NCBI RefSeq assembly: GCF_000613925.1
Contig: NZ_BAJX01000008.1
Location: 1 to 64,000 of the forward strand
From: Prevotella histicola JCM 15637 = DNF00424
GTDB taxonomy: Bacteria > Bacteroidota > Bacteroidia > Bacteroidales > Bacteroidaceae
DNA: 64,000 nt
Direction: 5' to 3'
Part shown: positions 3,697 to 63,498 of the stretch, piece by piece
Numbering within the stretch: the stretch's first letter is position 1
How the letters are laid out: every line of letters begins with the position of its first letter
Notes under the pieces: generated by a model
Databases searched by the model: none
Seen by the model: only the letters and a program-made list of their open reading frames with translations
Told to the model about the DNA's origin: nothing
Position numbers and translations under genes: made by a program

Positions 3697-4018
3697 ATGT
3701 TTATACTCTTCAAAGGTATATCTTTTGAGGTTGTGATCTGGGAGTAGTTGCATGTATATGGGTATTTTTTGAGATCCGTGGGGCAATTACTGTTCTTAGG
3801 TATATAGCCTTATTTCTTCTTTTTTTCTATTGTCTGTTTAAGTCTGTGCCCTGAAAGCGAGGATGAATGATTCCTGTTGATGATTCAAAAGGGTGGGGTA
3901 GACAAATCCTGGAGATTTGTTTTTGCAGTTTAAGAACAGTCGTTCTGTTATCTAATGGGTATATAAATCCGAGATAGAGTATGCCTGTTATTGTAAAACA
4001 AAATTCGAATAGCTTTTC

Positions 4019-4270
4019 AATAGGGCATCTTTTACGTTTTAAAAGGGCGTCTTTTGCATTGTAAAAGATGCCCTTTTGAGTTGTAAAAGGTGCTCTTTTA
4101 CATCGTAAAACATGCCCTTTTACGAGCCTATCTGTAACCGTCTGACAATGTGAAGGTTATAGAACCATGAAAAATTGATTTCCTTCTGTTTTATCCATTA
4201 TTCTCTTTTTCTGTTTGTAAGGTTGTTTTACTATTAATAACCACTGTTTCTTTGCATTCTTTTTTATACT
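4019..4270 (+). repeat. 22-bp palindrome array, family A copy 1, with conserved tail
   Basis: Five 22-base units start at 4019, 4041, 4063, 4085 and 4107. Each is an AAAAG-NNNNN-CTTTT imperfect palindrome plus a 7-base linker (GCATTGT-like); the first unit is degenerate (AATAGGGCATC). The tail begins near 4125 with AGCC-TATCTGTAACCGTCTGA and is shared, with decreasing identity, with copies at 18657 and 60002. The element fills the gap between the porin terminator and the channel operon. It is too regular and too free of unique spacers to be CRISPR. Function unknown. Confidence 0.85.
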
Positions 4271-14549: not shown

Positions 14550-16283
14550 TTACGCTTCAACAGGTTCATCATCTACAGCTTTGAAGTTATTGAGGTCCTC
14601 TAGAGTGAAGTCCTTGATGTAAGCAGCGCTACCTGTTACCTCTTCCTCAGCCATACGAACGAACACATTAGCTGACTTCTTGAAGAGTTCTGGTGCCTTT
14701 GCTGCGTCTTCAATGAGGAGAAGAGAGCCAATGATGTCAGCAGTCATGTTATAAAGACGGCGTGCAAGGAAGTCGTGAACATCCTGATTATCGTAAGCAT
14801 TTACCCTCTCAATAGACTCTTCGTAAAGCTCAACAAGACGTGCAACACGGTCACGCAGCCCCTTCATACAGTCACAAGCAAGTTCACCTTCGAGCATCTC
14901 CTTCATGATTGAAAGGTAAGTCCCGTTGGTAATGTAGCGTATTGCAGCAACAACTTGCAGCTGTGTAGTACCCTCATAGATAGAGAATATACGTGCATCG
15001 CGGAACAAACGCTGGCTCTTATACTCCATGATAAAGCCTGAACCGCCGTGAATAGAGATAGCATCGTAAGCAGTCTGGTTGGCATATTCAGAGTTGATAC
15101 CCTTGGCAAGTGGTGTGAAAGCATCAGCCAATCGGGTGTACTTCTTCATCTCCTGGCGTTCCTCTGGCGTCAGCTTCTGGTCACGAGAGATATCTTCCAA
15201 TGCCTTGTAGAGGTCTACATAGCGTGCTGTCTGATACAGAAGTGACCTACCGGCATCAAGTTTTGCCTTCATACGAGAGAGCATATCATAGACAGCAGGG
15301 AAGGTAATGATCTTCTTTCCGAACTGTGCACGCTCCTTAGCGTAAGCCAATCCCTCGTTGTATGCTTCTTGTTCAACACCTACTGACTGGGCAGCGATAC
15401 CCAAACGAGCACCGTTCATCAATGCCATGACGTACTTGATAAGACCCATACGGGTGTTACCACACAGTTCAGCCTTTGCGTTCTTATAGACAAGTTCGCA
15501 GGTTGGAGAGCCATGTATACCGAGTTTATTCTCTATATGACGTACGTCAACACCCCCGTTTCGCTTGTCATAGATAAACATTGATAATCCACGACCATCA
15601 CGTGTACCCTCTTCTGAACGTGCAAGGACGAGGTGGATGTCTGAATCTCCATTGGTAATGAAACGCTTCACACCGTTCAGTCGCCAGCAGTTCTCCTTTT
15701 CATCGAAGGTAGCTTTCAGCATAACGCGCTGGAGATCGGAACCTGCATCAGGCTCAGTAAGGTCCATTGACATCGTCTCACCAGCACAGATACGTGGGAT
15801 ATACTTCTGTCTTTGTTCCTCATTACCGAACTCATAGAGTGTGTCAATACATGATTGTAGTGACCATATGTTCTGGAAGCCAGCATCAGCAGCGGCAATA
15901 AGTTCAGATAACATAGAGAAAACAACGTTCGGAAGGTTCAGTCCACCATAACGGCGAGGCATTGAAATACCCCATAATCCAGCCTGACGTGTAGCCTCAA
16001 TGTTCTCCAATGTCTTGCTTGCATAGTGCATACGGTTATCAATGAGGTGTGGTCCTTCCTGGTCAACAGCCTCAGAGTTTGGTGCAATGATGTTTGCTGT
16101 TATGTCACCTGCTATGTCAAGGATACGCTTGTAGTTCTCAATAGCATCCTCATAGTTTACTGGTGCATCGTCATATTGCTTTGCATCAGCGTAGTTTCTT
16201 TCCTTTAATTCTACGATGCGTTTCATCAATGGATGCTCCAAGTGGAACGCAATTTCTGGGTGGTCAGTATAATAATTTGCCAT
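14550..16283 (-). CDS. Acyl-CoA dehydrogenase family flavoprotein
   Basis: An FAD enzyme of 577 residues that oxidises or, with electron bifurcation, reduces acyl-CoA. The N-terminal helical, middle beta (MSMDLTEPDAGSDLQ; LNGVKRFITNGDSD) and C-terminal helical (AQFGKKIITFPAVYDMLSRM; SIHGGSGFIMEYKSQRLFRD) domains are in order, followed by about 120 extra residues of the long acyl-CoA dehydrogenase type. The segment IFSIYEGTTQLQ is the usual catalytic-base region. The ATG is 5 bases after etfA, so the two are co-transcribed. The partner flavoprotein is encoded just upstream; the acyl substrate cannot be told from sequence. Confidence 0.93.
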   Translation of the reverse strand: MANYYTDHPEIAFHLEHPLMKRIVELKERNYADAKQYDDAPVNYEDAIENYKRILDIAGDITANIIAPNSEAVDQEGPHLIDNRMHYASKTLENIEATRQAGLWGISMPRRYGGLNLPNVVFSMLSELIAAADAGFQNIWSLQSCIDTLYEFGNEEQRQKYIPRICAGETMSMDLTEPDAGSDLQRVMLKATFDEKENCWRLNGVKRFITNGDSDIHLVLARSEEGTRDGRGLSMFIYDKRNGGVDVRHIENKLGIHGSPTCELVYKNAKAELCGNTRMGLIKYVMALMNGARLGIAAQSVGVEQEAYNEGLAYAKERAQFGKKIITFPAVYDMLSRMKAKLDAGRSLLYQTARYVDLYKALEDISRDQKLTPEERQEMKKYTRLADAFTPLAKGINSEYANQTAYDAISIHGGSGFIMEYKSQRLFRDARIFSIYEGTTQLQVVAAIRYITNGTYLSIMKEMLEGELACDCMKGLRDRVARLVELYEESIERVNAYDNQDVHDFLARRLYNMTADIIGSLLLIEDAAKAPELFKKSANVFVRMAEEEVTGSAAYIKDFTLEDLNNFKAVDDEPVEA

Positions 16284-16288
16284 TTTCT

Positions 16289-17311
16289 TTACTTACTGTT
16301 TTGCTTATAATACTTTATCAGCTTTGGAACTACTTCCTCTACAGTGCCATTGATGACGTAATCAGCAATGGCATTGATAGGTGCATCAGGGTCATTGTTG
16401 ATAGAAATGATGATACCACTGTCCTGCATACCAGCTATATGTTGTATCTGGCCAGAGATACCACAAGCTATGTATACCTTAGGATGTACTGTAACACCTG
16501 TCTGACCAATCTGACGATCATGGTCAACCCAGCCTGCATCAACAGCAGCGCGGCTGGCTCCTACTTCTCCGTGAAGCTCCTTTGCGAGCTTGAAGAGCAA
16601 GTCGAACCCTTCTTTTGAACCAACACCGTAACCTCCGGCAACAACGATTGGTGCACCTTTCAGGTTGTTCTGTGCTGCTTCAACGTGACGATCGATGACC
16701 TTTACCACGTAATCAATCTCTGGAACATACTTCGTTACATCAGGATAAACAACCTCTTCTTTGGCTTTACCATCATAGATTGCTTTCTGCATCACGCCCG
16801 AACGAACTGTAGCCATCTGTGGACGATGATCTGGATTGACGATCGTTGCAACAATGTTACCACCGAAAGCAGGACGAATCTGATAGAGAAGATTCTCATA
16901 ATGTTTGCCAGCTTTCTTGTCATCATAGTCTCCAATCTCAAGTTGAGTACAATCAGCAGTCAGACCACTGGTTAGAGATGATGATACACGAGGGCCGAGA
17001 TCACGCCCGATAACCGTAGCACCCATGAGACAAATCTGTGGCTTTTCCTCTTTGAAGAGGTTCACTAAGATGTCTGTATGAGGTGCTGAGGTGTAAGGGA
17101 AGAGTCCCTCACCATCAAAAACGAAGAGCTTGTCAACGCCGTAAGGTAGGATCTGATCCTCCACCTTACCCTTAATACCAGTACCGGCAGCGATGGCATG
17201 GAGTTCCACACCCAGCTCATTAGCGAGCTTACGACCCTTGGTCAGCAGCTCTTGTGAAACCTCCTGTACGGTGATTCCTTCTATTTCGCAATATACAAAT
17301 ACGTTATTCAT
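16289..17311 (-). CDS. etfA: Electron transfer flavoprotein, alpha subunit
   Basis: FAD-binding alpha subunit (340 residues) of the ETF heterodimer that exchanges electrons with the adjacent acyl-CoA dehydrogenase. The C-terminal FAD signature is complete (VAGGYGVGSKEGFDLL, GASRAAVDAGWVDH, IGQTGVTVHPKVYIACGISG, QHIAGMQDSGIIISIN, DPDAPI). I start it at the ATG 17311 (MNNVFVYCEIEG). The frame stays open to 17362, but those 17 residues (including HRSPFGEGMGVK) are merely translated from a REP-like hairpin that lies between etfB and etfA. Confidence 0.95.
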   Translation of the reverse strand: MNNVFVYCEIEGITVQEVSQELLTKGRKLANELGVELHAIAAGTGIKGKVEDQILPYGVDKLFVFDGEGLFPYTSAPHTDILVNLFKEEKPQICLMGATVIGRDLGPRVSSSLTSGLTADCTQLEIGDYDDKKAGKHYENLLYQIRPAFGGNIVATIVNPDHRPQMATVRSGVMQKAIYDGKAKEEVVYPDVTKYVPEIDYVVKVIDRHVEAAQNNLKGAPIVVAGGYGVGSKEGFDLLFKLAKELHGEVGASRAAVDAGWVDHDRQIGQTGVTVHPKVYIACGISGQIQHIAGMQDSGIIISINNDPDAPINAIADYVINGTVEEVVPKLIKYYKQNSK

Positions 17312-17318
17312 AGGTTTC

Positions 17319-17472
17319 ACCCCCATCCCTTCTCCGAATGGAGAGCGGTGTGATATGCTCACTTGTTGGGGGATTTATTTTTTAATATGATGCCTTCCCA
17401 TGATGTTTGTTAATCGTTAACAGAACATTTTATCCTTCCTCTCTATGCAGAGAAGAGTTGGGGGAGCGGCTT
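17319..17472. repeat. Pair of REP-like GC-rich hairpins between etfB and etfA
   Basis: A first hairpin at about 17319-17351 (CACCCCCATCCCTTCTCC, GAAT turn, GGAGAGCGG) and a second at about 17433-17472 (CCTCTCTATGCAGAGAAGAG then TTGGGGGAG) stand in opposite orientation about 80 bases apart. They share the CTCCGAATGGAG core and the flanking C-rich/TTGGGGG blocks with the hairpin at 51921 and the DUF559-flanking repeats at 61545 and 62235. The pair separates two genes that are normally close. Confidence 0.7.
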
Positions 17473-18656: not shown

Positions 18657-18897
18657 AAAAGGGCGTCTTTTGCATTCTAAAAGATGCCCTTTTGCGTGGT
18701 AAAAGATGCCCTTTTGATGTGTAAAAGGTGCCCTTTTGCAACGTAAAAGACGCCCTTTTGCAAGCCCATCTGTAACTGTCTGATAACGTATAAGTTACAA
18801 ATGGAGAAAAAGATGGATTTTTCTTGTTTGAGAGTTTTCTGTGTTCTTTAAACTGTAAGATTATTTCATTATTCCTAATTCATCTCACCTTATATGA
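18657..18897 (+). repeat. 22-bp palindrome array, family A copy 2, with conserved tail
   Basis: Five units begin at 18657, 18679, 18701, 18723 and 18745, each AAAAG-NNNNN-CTTTT plus a 7-base linker. From 18763 the tail (AGCCCATCTGTAACTGTCTG, later GTAAGATTATTTCATTATT and CTCACCTTAT) matches copy 3 at 60111-60240 closely and copy 1 more weakly. It lies in the 700-base divergent gap between etfB and dnaG and faces dnaG, ending about 130 bases before its promoter. Confidence 0.88.
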
Positions 18898-51920: not shown

Positions 51921-51955
51921 CCAACTCCCCCTCTCTGAATGGAGAGGGGGGTTGG
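51921..51955. repeat. REP-like hairpin after the receptor locus
   Basis: CCAACTCCCCCTCTC (51921-51935) pairs with GAGAGGGGGGTTGG (51942-51955) around a short TGAATG loop. Same CTCTC-GAATGGAGAG core as the repeats at 17319. It may also end transcription of the locus, but only weak T content follows (TTGTTTATAC). Confidence 0.75.
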
Positions 51956-60001: not shown

Positions 60002-60240
60002 AATAGGGCATCTATTGCATTCTAAAAGGGCGTCTTTTGCATTGTAAAAGATGCCCTTTTGATGTGTAAAAGGTGCCCTTTTGCATTGTAAAAGATGCCC
60101 TTTTACAAGCCCCTTTGTAACTGTTTGATAATCTGGATACTACAAAGTGCGAAAAAGATGACCATCCTCTGTTTTGGTCTTCCTGGTGTATTTGGTAATG
60201 TAAGATCATTTTATCATTGCTAATACCTGCTCACCTATGT
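60002..60240 (+). repeat. 22-bp palindrome array, family A copy 3, with conserved tail
   Basis: Five units start at 60002 (degenerate, AATAGGGCATCTATT), 60024, 60046, 60068 and 60090; arms AAAAG/CTTTT as in copies 1 and 2. The tail from 60108 (AAGCCCCTTTGTAACTGTTT, later TGTAAGATCATTTTATCATT and CTCACCTATG) matches copy 2. It starts 18 bases after the TPR gene stop. Confidence 0.88.
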
Positions 60241-60909: not shown

Positions 60910-60940
60910 TTTGCCTTTTGCCTGATTTAATGTATCTTTG
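60910..60940 (+). promoter_or_regulatory. Promoter of the 60946 gene, nearly leaderless
   Basis: TTTG at 60910-60913, a 19-base spacer and TATCTTTG at 60933-60940: full consensus. The ATG at 60946 is only 5 bases past the box, so the mRNA should start at the initiation codon. Confidence 0.75.
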
Positions 60941-60945
60941 TGGCT

Positions 60946-61593
60946 ATGAACGCACAAGAAGCACAGAACATTAAATGGAGTGAAAACATCATCATTGCAG
61001 ATGGTGATTATATTGATCATGTAGCTTTCGACATTATCGTGAACTTTGAGCGCATGTTAGATCGGCGTATCCCTGCAGCTGATTTCAGTCAGTGGGCAGT
61101 GGATGTAGCGCTTGACGGTCGGCTGAAACCAGGGGATCACGAAACGCAAGTGGTTCTTCTGCACGATAAAAAGAATCTGAAGTTGGAGAATTTTGCTCCT
61201 TCTGATTATGAAAAAGAACTCAATGGACAGGCGTTTAGAGATGGTCACTTCGGAGAGTTTATCATCAATAGTATAGCAACTGGTGATGAACATACCGCGA
61301 AGGAAGCAGTATTGCTCGACCTTCTTAAGACACTTTGCAATCATGAAGAGGTTAAACGTATCATGATTGTGCCGAATGCAGAGGATGCTTCGCTGCTGAA
61401 TAGTATTCGTTCAACCCTCAGGGACGTGGATGATGAGCTAAAGCACATCACATTGTTTGCCATGCAACCGATAGAAGGTGGCAACTTCAAGCAAGCAATT
61501 TTGGGGTATTCGATAATGCATGCAATGGGGATTAACGGAATAGAAGCCTCCCCAAGCCCCTCCGAAGGAGGGGATGTTTACCTAGCGGAATAG
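60946..61593 (+). CDS. Hypothetical protein with a C-terminus rewritten by a repeat
   Basis: A 215-residue soluble protein without signal or helix. It starts MNAQEAQNIKWSENIIIADG and has alternating strands and helices (DETQVVLLHDKK-like stretch HETQVVLLHDKKNL; EVKRIMIVPNAEDASLL; LKHITLFAMQPIEGGNFK). I do not recognise the family. The last ~15 residues (EASPSPSEGGDVYLAE) are translated from the REP-like repeat at 61545, so the native end was probably near MHAMGING and has been replaced by repeat insertion. Confidence 0.75.
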   Translation: MNAQEAQNIKWSENIIIADGDYIDHVAFDIIVNFERMLDRRIPAADFSQWAVDVALDGRLKPGDHETQVVLLHDKKNLKLENFAPSDYEKELNGQAFRDGHFGEFIINSIATGDEHTAKEAVLLDLLKTLCNHEEVKRIMIVPNAEDASLLNSIRSTLRDVDDELKHITLFAMQPIEGGNFKQAILGYSIMHAMGINGIEASPSPSEGGDVYLAE

Positions 61594-61690
61594 GAAACAT
61601 TCCCCCAAATCATCTAAGAAGGGGATATACTTAGCAGTATAAAAGCCTCCTTAGAATCCCTCCAAAGGAAAGTATATGCTTAGTAAATAG
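61545..61690 (+). repeat. Left flank of the DUF559 element: GC hairpin plus degenerate ~47-bp tandem units
   Basis: 61545-61573 is a 29-base sequence (AGCCTCCCCAAG then CCCCTCCGAAGGAGGGG) that recurs perfectly inverted at 62235-62263. It is followed by two degenerate ~47-base units that share TATACTTAGCAGTATAAAAG / TATATGCTTAGTAAATAGAG and C-rich starts (TTCCCCCAAATC; AATCCCTCC). A further hairpin-like piece (CACCCTCTTCC...GGAGTGTGGGG) lies at about 61788-61818. Confidence 0.8.
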
Positions 61691-61753
61691 AGCCTTATAT
61701 TGTTCCTTTGGAAAATGAAGAGGTAAAGGTAATGGAAGAAGACATAGGTCATT

Positions 61754-63498
61754 ATGAATACGAAAGCATCCCATGATAGCAATCAAACACCCTCTTCCTT
61801 AGAGGAGTGTGGGGAGACTTCCCCTCCTGGTTACCATCATGCTGATCCTTTCCTTTATCGAATATTGGAAGAGGAAGCAAAGAGAATGAGGAGATTTCCC
61901 ACTGAGGCAGAGTCAATTTTGTGGGAGACTGTTAGAAAGAAACAGTTGGGATTTCGGTTCAGAAGACAGTTTGTTATCTATGATTATATAGTAGATTTCG
62001 TCTGTTTGCCGCTAAAATTGATTATAGAAGCTGATGGAAAGTATCATTTTACAGAGGAACAGAAAGCTGCAGACAGTGTTAGAAATGATTTCCTGATAGG
62101 TAAAGGATTCAGTTTACTCCGGTTTACGAATCAGGAAATATTAGCAAATATAGAACAAGTAAAATATAAAATAATAGAAAAGATGGAAGAACTGAGAAGT
62201 AAGACGACTGCAGTAGGCGGTGGTAATCAGACAACCCCTCCTTCGGAGGGGCTTGGGGAGGCTGGACGAGTGTTAATGATTGGCGCAGGAGGCGTTGCTA
62301 CTGTAGCTGCTTTTAAGATTGTCCAGAACCAGGACGTGTTTACAGATTTTATGATAGCCAGCCGTCGTAAGGAGAAATGTGATGAGTTAGTTAAGGCTAT
62401 TCATGATAAGGGTTATAAGGCTGATATCAAGACTGCACAGGTTGATGCAGACGATGTTGAGCAGTTGAAGGCACTCTTCAATGATTTCAAACCAGAGTTA
62501 GTTATCAATCTTGCTTTGCCTTATCAAGACCTGACAATCATGGATGCTTGTCTGGCTTGCGGTTGTAACTATTTAGATACAGCTAACTATGAACCAAAAG
62601 ATGAGGCTCATTTCGAGTACAGTTGGCAATGGGCTTATAAGGATAAGTTCGAGAAAGCTGGACTGACAGCTATCCTCGGCTGTGGCTTTGACCCAGGAGT
62701 ATCACAGGCTTATACGGCATATGCAGCCAAACATCACTTTGATGAGATTCACTATCTTGACATTGTTGACTGTAATGCAGGTAACCATCATAAGGCTTTT
62801 GCAACGAATTTCAATCCTGAAATTAACATCCGTGAGATTACCCAGAAGGGTCTTTACTATGAGAATGGTAAGTGGACTGAGACAGAACCATTGGCAGTAC
62901 ATCAGGATTTGACCTATCCAAATATTGGTCCACGTGACTCTTATCTGATGCATCATGAGGAGTTGGAATCATTGGTTAAGAACTATCCAACTATTAAGCG
63001 TGCACGTTTTTGGATGACATTCGGTAAGCAGTATCTTACTTATCTCGACTGTATTCAGAACCTTGGCATGAGTCGTATTGACGAAATAGAGTATGAAGCA
63101 CCGTTAGCTGATGGTTCTGGTAAGACTACTAAGGTGAAGATTGTTCCTTTACAGTTCCTCAAAGCAGTACTGCCTAACCCACAGGATCTAGGTGAAAACT
63201 ATGATGGCGAGACTTCTATTGGCTGCCGTATCCGTGGTATCAAGGACGGTAAGGAGCAGACTTATTACATTTATAATAACTGTAAGCACCAGGATGCCTA
63301 TAATGAAACTGGTATGCAGGGTGTCAGCTATACTACTGGTGTACCTGCAATGGCTGGTGCAATGATGTTCTTCAAGGGACTTTGGCGTAAGCAGGTGTAT
63401 GGAATGTAGAAGACTTCGACCCAGATCCATTCTTGGAGGTGCTCAACAAGCAGGGACTTCCTTGGCATGAGGAGTTTGGAGGAGACTTAGAATTATAA
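61754..63498 (+). CDS. DUF559 endonuclease-like domain in frame with carboxynorspermidine dehydrogenase; one frameshift
   Basis: The open frame holds two parts. Residues about 40-150 are a DUF559 (Vsr-like restriction-fold) domain: RRFPTEAESILWETVRKKQL, GFRFRRQFVIYDYIVDFVC, LIIEADGKYHF, RNDFLIGKGFSLLRFTNQEI, with acidic residues at PTEAE, VDF and EADG. After a linker made from the inverted repeat (QTTPPSEGLGEAG) comes a complete saccharopine-dehydrogenase-like enzyme from RVLMIGAGGVATVAAFKI (62267 on), with LDTANYEPKDEAH, LGCGFDPGVSQAYTAYAAKH. This matches carboxynorspermidine dehydrogenase (polyamine synthesis), about 409 residues. No ATG stands just before it; GTG 62270 could start a separate protein. 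The end needs one G at 63391 to read RKAGVWNVEDFDPDPFLE; stop at 63496-63498. Confidence 0.82.
62235..62263. repeat. Right inverted copy of the DUF559-flanking repeat
   Basis: CCCCTCCTTCGGAGGGG followed by CTTGGGGAGGCT is the exact 29-base reverse complement of 61545-61573. The two enclose 719 bases in total. The hairpin-forming core and the TTGGGG block match the REP-like repeats at 17319 and 51921. Confidence 0.92.

Follow-up and report, generated by a model that had tools for sequence, protein, structure and literature searches.

A 64,000-nucleotide stretch of the Prevotella histicola JCM 15637 genome (contig NZ_BAJX01000008.1, positions 1 to 64,000; hereafter the window) contains a gene of the DUF559 family enclosed by two GC-rich hairpins in inverted orientation. 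We propose, with a probability of roughly 0.65, that the gene and its two hairpins constitute one mobile unit. The unit would belong to a system that resembles repetitive extragenic palindromic (REP) sequences and the REP doublets that form hairpins (REPINs), with a nuclease of the Vsr/EDxHD fold replacing the HUH transposase. In the sequences compared, DUF559 is associated with the hairpins, the repeat types are matched, the window repeat is dispersed and the unit is present or absent as a whole.

The two arms that flank the gene are exact reverse complements of 29 nt each, as a first-pass annotation of the window had claimed, and the PF04480 (DUF559) domain lies between them (61868-62185; 109 bits, E 1.4e-31, gathering cut-off 20.6). 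In an inverted-repeat search of the window (seed 14, minimum 22 nt), the extended pair of 33 nt at 97% was the most complementary one listed. Each arm is composed of a 12-nt tail, facing outward, and a 17-nt hairpin with a 7-bp GC stem (Table 1). By eye, and in the window copy only, the arms read AGCCTCCCCAAG, hairpin and then ATGT or TTGT, with no GTAG tag seen at the foot of the repeat. The DUF559 unit has terminal inverted repeats, the feature expected of an insertion sequence (IS) or a miniature inverted-repeat transposable element. Two sites in the window that had been annotated as the same hairpin without the gene, 17319-17472 and 51921-51955, are GC-rich but differ in sequence from the arms, and the 27-nt arm core has no other match in the window within 8 mismatches. 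Genuine copies of the arm are found elsewhere in the genome.

The arrangement recurs across the genus. DUF559 was matched in 71 of 120 genus genomes (eight of them weakly or partly), with up to eight matches per genome, and 92 loci were analyzed: 30 supplied, 60 fetched and the two of the window's own genome, the remaining matches, including weak and partial ones, being left out. A GC-rich hairpin lies within 300 nt on both sides at 70 of the 92 loci, compared to 2 of 404 shifted positions. An exact inverted match of at least 15 nt was found at 45 loci, in 1 of 404 shifted controls and in 31 of 1380 cross-locus pairs. With a stricter test, C-rich-stem hairpins flank 65 of 92 DUF559 loci but none of 30 Y1-transposase loci and none of 29 TfoX_N loci from the same genus (a thirtieth TfoX locus, whose flank was too short, was excluded). 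At the window locus the left arm is just beyond the 300-nt limit of both hairpin tests. At the second DUF559 locus of the same genome, hairpins are visible by eye on both sides, with an inverted match of 14 nt at 93%, and the automatic test detected the upstream hairpin alone. At many genus loci the two arms agree in stem length and loop. The tail points outward at 63 of the 86 loci with an arm, inward at 11 and is unclear at 12; the nuclease tree requires two or more switches of this direction.

A scan of contigs across phyla returned at least 80 DUF559 loci, of which 79 were usable after L225 was dropped. Among the matches listed, to which all cross-phylum counts refer, most record titles name Pseudomonadota, and the remainder include Desulfobacterota and Chloroflexi. 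C-rich-stem hairpins occur on both sides at 42 of 79 loci and at none of 513 shifted positions, where one-sided hairpins number 12 and 7; inverted matches of at least 15 nt occur at 30 of 79, compared to 0 of 513 shifted and 41 of 1185 cross pairs. At these loci the hairpin commonly reads CCCTCTCCC-loop-GGGAGAGGG, and a G-rich tail (for example TTGGGGTGAGGG) comes after it; tails point in at 49 loci, out at 12 and are unclear at 9. The likeness of flanking repeats at other DUF559 genes, which the first-pass annotation had put forward as a check on its idea, is thus found both in the genus (65/92) and across phyla (42/79). From 38 records of a plasmid collection, eight DUF559 loci were taken, and by eye each has a hairpin on at least one side; a Deinococcus locus between paaD and paaZ has a perfect inverted match of 45 nt. 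In Photobacterium sp. GJ3 (L157), the DUF559 match is followed by repeated copies of a unit that contains a GC hairpin.

Empty sites were observed for the complete unit. In genome G026, locus L051 (1405-2012) consists of 608 nt of hairpin, DUF559 gene and inverted hairpin. The ends of the unit are CGGCCCCTCCCCC in opposite orientations, and the left junction has about 10 nt of additional sequence. Genome G003 lacks the unit: its flanks, 98% identical, are separated by 2 nt. The window also carries an empty target (Table 1). At this clean site the hairpins evidently arrive together with the gene. Insertion of the gene between pre-existing repeats was considered and is rejected here, as the empty allele has just 2 nt between its flanks. 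Because G003 is the sister of G026 in a 30-genome tree, with the window's genome next, a gain in G026 is the simplest reading. Another unit (L072/L057) is present in G026 and G003 and absent at that place in the window's genome and in G075; that of L002 is absent in G075, and G003 and G026 hold other sequence there. For L082, a search in G041 and G100 gave no clean empty site.

The window locus itself has an unoccupied counterpart in the two nearest relatives searched (L122 and L123). In both, the upstream DUF6621 gene adjoins the saccharopine-dehydrogenase-like gene without an insert, DUF6621 ends differently, and the dehydrogenase, whose protein is about 99% identical to that of the window, begins with ATG. 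BLAST against L122 leaves 53 nt between the flanks, compared to 735 nt at the window locus. By eye, the replaced sequence is about 26 nt long and takes in the A of the ATG, and the last codon of the right arm, GCT, takes the place of the relatives' ATG. DUF559 and the dehydrogenase now form one frame of 551 codons (61754-63409). These relatives bear out the earlier suggestion that the upstream gene gained a 15-residue tail and the downstream enzyme lost its ATG; the empty sites called for as a check are therefore present at the window locus and, in clean form, at L051.

Copies of the hairpin without the gene, singly, in tandem or, in some genomes, as inverted pairs, are scattered through DUF559-bearing genomes. 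The window's genome has 28 matches to the arm core (at most 2 mismatches, window arms counted) and none to a reversed control pattern. Dispersal was analyzed in samples of three genomes, one biased to repeat-rich contigs, one partly so, and one mostly evenly spaced plus five DUF559 loci. In the 442-kb sample of the window's genome, which includes the window and was picked towards repeat-rich contigs, 18 further arm copies (at most 2 mismatches) lie away from DUF559 loci. Of 157 arms from other genomes, 150 have no copy in this sample and 7 have 1-17 (mean 0.43); those with high copy number are of the same repeat type as the window arms. Tailed hairpins no more than 200 nt apart are arranged as direct, outward and inward pairs in numbers of 16, 7 and 1 in the G016 sample, 2, 6 and 3 in that of G117, and 5, 0 and 0 in that of the window's genome. 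Twenty stretches of G041 and G100 were selected on the basis of their matches, and 11 of them contain an inverted pair without the gene, the two hairpins being separated by 25-73 nt; L350, which also gave a double hit, appears to be spurious. Most of the pairs have an inner CTATAG in common with the full unit L082.

Several further repeats were noted beside these copies. Copies of the window repeat are concentrated on contigs C31, C39 and C40 of its genome (G000), where several form direct pairs with a spacing of 77-101 nt and conserved extensions (GATGTGAGAGGATACGGTGGGATATG); they may belong to a larger repeated locus. In G016, L169 (C1:371600-372000) is a tandem array of at least seven hairpin repeats of 44 nt. 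Apart from these hairpins, a query segment of L082 (3088-3190), roughly 100 nt in length, is matched dozens of times in G100 and represents a distinct repeat.

The repeats vary with the nuclease. When pairs of loci are binned by DUF559 identity, mean repeat similarity between genomes increases with it from 0.28 to 0.86 (Mantel r 0.46, p 0.001). Among loci at different sites the link is also found (Mantel r 0.39, p 0.001), with a mean repeat similarity of 0.71 for the 30 such pairs of DUF559 identity 0.65-0.75. Two DUF559 loci within one genome have a mean repeat similarity of 0.36 (56 pairs), compared to 0.28-0.42 for unrelated ones. By these sequence comparisons, repeat type tracks the lineage of the nuclease, not the genome. 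Repeat number follows DUF559 as well: counted with a single pattern, and with eight genomes of weak or partial DUF559 match scored as lacking it, the median number of hairpins in genomes at least 90% complete is 65 with DUF559 (n=32) and 1 without (n=27; p 1.6e-10). Three or fewer hairpins occur in 0 of 32 and 20 of 27 of these genomes, respectively. Over all 120 genomes the medians are 54 (n=63) and 2 (n=57). One genome with DUF559, G039, has zero hairpins of the counted pattern.

In known REP systems the repeats are associated with a REP-associated tyrosine transposase (RAYT) of the Y1 (HUH) type. One alternative is that DUF559 is a passenger and that the unit is moved in trans by a RAYT or by an IS transposase. 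The accessible text of PMC3116915 and PMC3733652 describes this same architecture for RAYT systems. Our transposase survey covered the Y1 family; Y1_Tnp (PF01797) is present in 72 of 120 genus genomes, and DUF559-bearing genomes with Y1 have somewhat more hairpins than those without (63.5 compared to 39, p 0.07). Against this, Y1_Tnp has no match at E 0.001 in the window's genome and none in G003 or G026, all of which bear the repeats. Among genomes without Y1, the median hairpin number is 39 with DUF559 (n=21) and 1 without (n=27; p 6e-6). Where DUF559 is absent, Y1 has no effect (median 2 compared to 1, p 0.56). None of the 30 Y1 loci has such hairpins, and the repeat type follows the DUF559 sequence. 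RAYT as the cause is thus rejected for the window's genome and has little weight in the genus. We regard the passenger explanation as improbable, although it is the strongest of the alternatives.

In the window protein the residues of a nuclease site are intact. The near-invariant residues E53, W57, Q72, D81, E92, D94 and H98 are all present in the window protein; E92 and D94 are conserved in 170 of 170 aligned rows, D81 in 169 and H98 in 168. The fold alignment took in 39 of the 80 cross-phylum loci, and L157, L228 and L236 were dropped from DUF559 comparisons because of stops or frame. An AlphaFold model of the window protein (mean predicted local distance difference test score 88.4) was compared to known structures with Foldseek. 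The best match is 3hrl, a sequence relative at E 2.7e-18, and the next is the catalytic domain of the homing endonuclease I-Bth0305I (3r3p, E 2.5e-4, target template-modelling score 0.76), indicating the EDxHD homing-endonuclease fold; the match to Vsr (1vsr) is weaker (E 0.07). On this model, the closest characterized structural relative of the DUF559 nuclease is a homing endonuclease. Elsewhere, PHROGs gave a match that covers part of an 'HNH endonuclease' family (E 5e-8), DUF559 relatives occur in 2 of 50,697 phage records, and the single Rfam match, a snoRNA, is far under its gathering score. E. coli YcjD, a member of the family, is already assigned to the PD-(D/E)XK superfamily in the accessible part of PMC1189080, and a Legionella report, as far as its accessible text goes, places DUF559 within a repeated transposase-bearing segment.

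A different explanation is that DUF559 is a Vsr-type repair enzyme for which the hairpins serve as physiological substrate or as regulator, not as mobile ends. According to the accessible text of PMC12907096, Caulobacter VsrA contains DUF559, acts on the consequences of cytosine methyltransferase loss and is responsible for an SOS response in cells lacking one DNA methyltransferase; on that account the family can damage DNA in vivo. The shared fold class and the long retention of units at shared sites are also compatible with a repair role. Against it stand the clean site, known both empty and occupied, where the hairpins belong to the inserted sequence, the presence of up to eight DUF559 matches in one genome, and the matched inverted arms and gene-less inverted pairs, which have no evident repair function. 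We consider this explanation unlikely too, and place it next after the passenger.

There is still less to recommend a third possibility, that DUF559 is an anti-phage or restriction nuclease which merely inserts near repeats. In PADLOC, part of the domain weakly matches DpdF (E 6.4e-4) and a methyl-directed restriction enzyme (E 9.6e-5), and on one Synechocystis plasmid DUF559 is beside a VapC toxin and a DUF1156 protein. At ten genus sites, in E. coli and in Deinococcus, however, the neighbours that were recognized are metabolic, with no methylase or defence gene among them, though no systematic search was made, and the clean empty site had no pre-existing repeats; a defence role of this kind is very unlikely. 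Finally, that the hairpins are ordinary terminators or GC-rich padding, inverted by chance or local gene conversion, draws on the fact that a single arm folds no better than many shuffles, but it has almost no probability given the shifted, cross-locus and other-family controls (0/30, 0/29 and 0/513 among them), the recurring tail on the arms and the copies of the window arm elsewhere in its genome.

A number of observations weigh against the proposal that gene and hairpins move as one unit through the nuclease. The folding energy of the arms is unexceptional compared to shuffles (z -1.5 and -0.7), and so the case rests on exact inversion and recurrence. With the strict test, 10 of 92 genus loci have no C-rich-stem hairpin on either side (L050, L058 and L082 are among the few failures with GCCCCC-stem hairpins just below the limit), 37 of 79 cross-phylum loci, among the matches listed, fail on at least one side, and the other seven plasmid-collection loci have inverted matches of 8-10 nt, the background level. 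Dispersal of a locus's own arm is clear at the window locus and weak at other loci: the second DUF559 locus of the same genome has an arm with no further copies in the sample, own arms have 0-5 copies in G016, where foreign arms reach 16, and 0-3 in G117. In the sample of the window's genome, nearby copies are direct pairs only (5), with none inverted within 200 nt. Hairpins also occur in genomes without a DUF559 match: G101 has 94 (73% complete), G098 has 23 (99% complete), and G100, 55% complete, has gene-less pairs. When the tail-in class is removed, the correlation of repeat with nuclease falls to a Spearman coefficient of 0.045 over all different-site pairs. On the 30-genome tree, 3.7-4.7 independent pairs support the link between presence and abundance and 0-1 oppose it (median p 0.125-0.22), which is the right direction with too few pairs, and not significant. 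No target-site duplication was seen at the window site or the clean empty site, with junctions judged by eye. Copies mostly remain at their site: 67 of the 92 genus loci fall into 17 shared neighbour-gene clusters, and at least 21 cluster changes on the nuclease tree suggest that units mostly stay put after insertion. The direction of change at the empty sites is also deduced.

The first-pass annotation had read the locus as REP-like sequences spread by a dedicated nuclease. The architecture, its recurrence, the empty sites and the dispersal agree with this, while cutting of the hairpin by DUF559, and movement of the unit thereby, is a step that we infer. In the mechanism we suggest, the nuclease would recognize its cognate hairpin, most likely when this is extruded or lies on the lagging strand, and cut at or near it. 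Host repair would then insert the DNA bounded by the hairpins elsewhere, by copying or joining; most of the insertion sites that were read lie between genes of an operon. The full unit would move rarely and the short hairpin-only derivatives more often. Strand joining is not known for EDxHD hydrolases; joining by the host would explain the missing target-site duplication as well as the small deletion and the filler at the junctions.

The DUF559 unit resembles RAYT systems in several respects: the gene is enclosed by inverted, GC-rich palindromes that have an asymmetric tail; the repeats are specific to a lineage; copies are dispersed singly, in tandem and, in some genomes, as inverted pairs; and each genome contains few copies of the gene. 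Flanking inverted palindromic repeats and genome dispersal, as in the REPtron/REPIN architecture described for RAYT systems in the accessible text of PMC3116915 and PMC3733652, are both found at the window locus. It differs in its enzyme, a Vsr/EDxHD-fold hydrolase and not a Y1/HUH transposase, in the lack of a GTAG tag on the window repeat, and in that an empty site of the full unit can be demonstrated. The Y1 transposase that defines RAYT is absent from between the repeats, where PF04480 is found instead, and the system is therefore not a RAYT system. I-Bth0305I (EDxHD, Vsr-like), the best characterized structural match, is likewise encoded by a small, selfish-looking nuclease gene; at the window locus, in contrast, no intron or intein is seen, the insertion sites of DUF559 vary, and the unit has inverted hairpin ends and hairpin-only derivatives. 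Vsr and Caulobacter VsrA, which contains DUF559 according to the accessible text of PMC12907096, belong to a common superfamily with it, but the immediate neighbours of the window gene are DUF6621 and the dehydrogenase, and the flanking hairpins and the mobility are without counterpart in mismatch repair.

Downstream of the E. coli locus sapF-ycjD-fabI, which also contains a DUF559 gene, are GC-rich repeat units with further copies in the chromosome; such hairpins were seen on this side only. At least 80% of a sapF-ycjD-fabI query is matched in 3362 of 5426 E. coli genomes. As a source of empty sites ycjD was rejected: in three strains that lack a full match, the neighbour of sapF is an efflux operon, and none of the three thus offers a simple empty allele. 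Another set of palindromic repeats without RAYT across several phyla is that of the CGTC-tagged REPs, reported without a dedicated transposase in the accessible text of PMC3733652. The CGTC motif lies near DUF559 at 5 of 80 cross-phylum loci, among the matches listed, and at 6 of 92 genus loci, which is about chance by an uncontrolled estimate, and the CGTC-tagged repeats are therefore not established as DUF559 repeats. No report linking DUF559 to such repeats was found among the papers listed in searches of open-access literature, and one may exist elsewhere.

Table 1. Features of the window at and around the DUF559 unit
Feature	Position	Strand	Basis
DUF6621 gene, upstream neighbour	60940..61593	+	PF20326, E 4.5e-34; last 15 codons enter the left repeat and beyond
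Left arm: outward tail AGCCTCCCCAAG and hairpin CCCCTCC-GAA-GGAGGGG	61545..61573	-	exact reverse complement of right arm; fold
Putative second copy of the tail-plus-hairpin motif, degenerate	61641..61668	-	by eye
DUF559 nuclease gene region	61754..62263	+	PF04480; frame continues through right arm into next gene
Putative degenerate hairpin-plus-tail motif within DUF559 frame	61790..61819	+	by eye
Right arm: hairpin CCCCTCC-TTC-GGAGGGG and outward tail CTTGGGGAGGCT	62235..62263	+	inverted match; fold; relatives
Saccharopine-dehydrogenase-like gene	62264..63409	+	PF03435 and PF16653; in-frame fusion behind DUF559
Empty target site of L051 unit	16286..16289	.	flanks match 15182-16286 and 16289-17273 at 83-84%, 2 nt between

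Neighbouring genes were examined at ten representative genus loci. They include genes taken to be yicC-gmk (11 loci), argG-argC (10), subunits of a 2-oxoacid ferredoxin oxidoreductase (6), etfA-acyl-CoA dehydrogenase (6), argS-RNase H (4) and trpA-trpB (3). The DUF559 frame continues more than 100 codons past the domain at 28 of 92 loci and in some of the cases examined enters the next gene, as it does in the window. At L115, L070, L031 and L067, repeat-like peptides such as TPLPIGEGHGGE are N-terminal of neighbouring enzyme frames, presumably TrpB, ArgC, a 2-oxoacid oxidoreductase subunit and acyl-CoA dehydrogenase. An unrelated palindromic repeat family of the AAAAGGGCGTCTTTTGCATTGTAAAAGATGCCCTTTT type has several copies in both orientations in the window (4017-4077, 18657-18759 and 60002-60062).

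DUF559, a family of unknown function, is now tied to a class of repeats in the genus of the window (120 genomes), in many Pseudomonadota and at one or more Deinococcus loci. We consider it slightly better than an even bet that this is a second, RAYT-independent REP/REPIN system, in which the widespread palindromes of the form CCCTCTCCC-loop-GGGAGAGGG-tail would have DUF559 proteins, those of the YcjD and VsrA type included, as their dedicated enzymes. Its minimal element, of about 0.6 kb with one Vsr/EDxHD-fold nuclease gene and two hairpin ends, would insert into operons and be able to fuse in frame to essential enzymes. The matched repeat types supply both cognate and non-cognate substrates for a direct assay. 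If true, this would give DUF559 a function and explain a common class of bacterial repeats. It would also represent an unrecognized kind of mobile DNA, a new element design with a hydrolase in place of a transposase.

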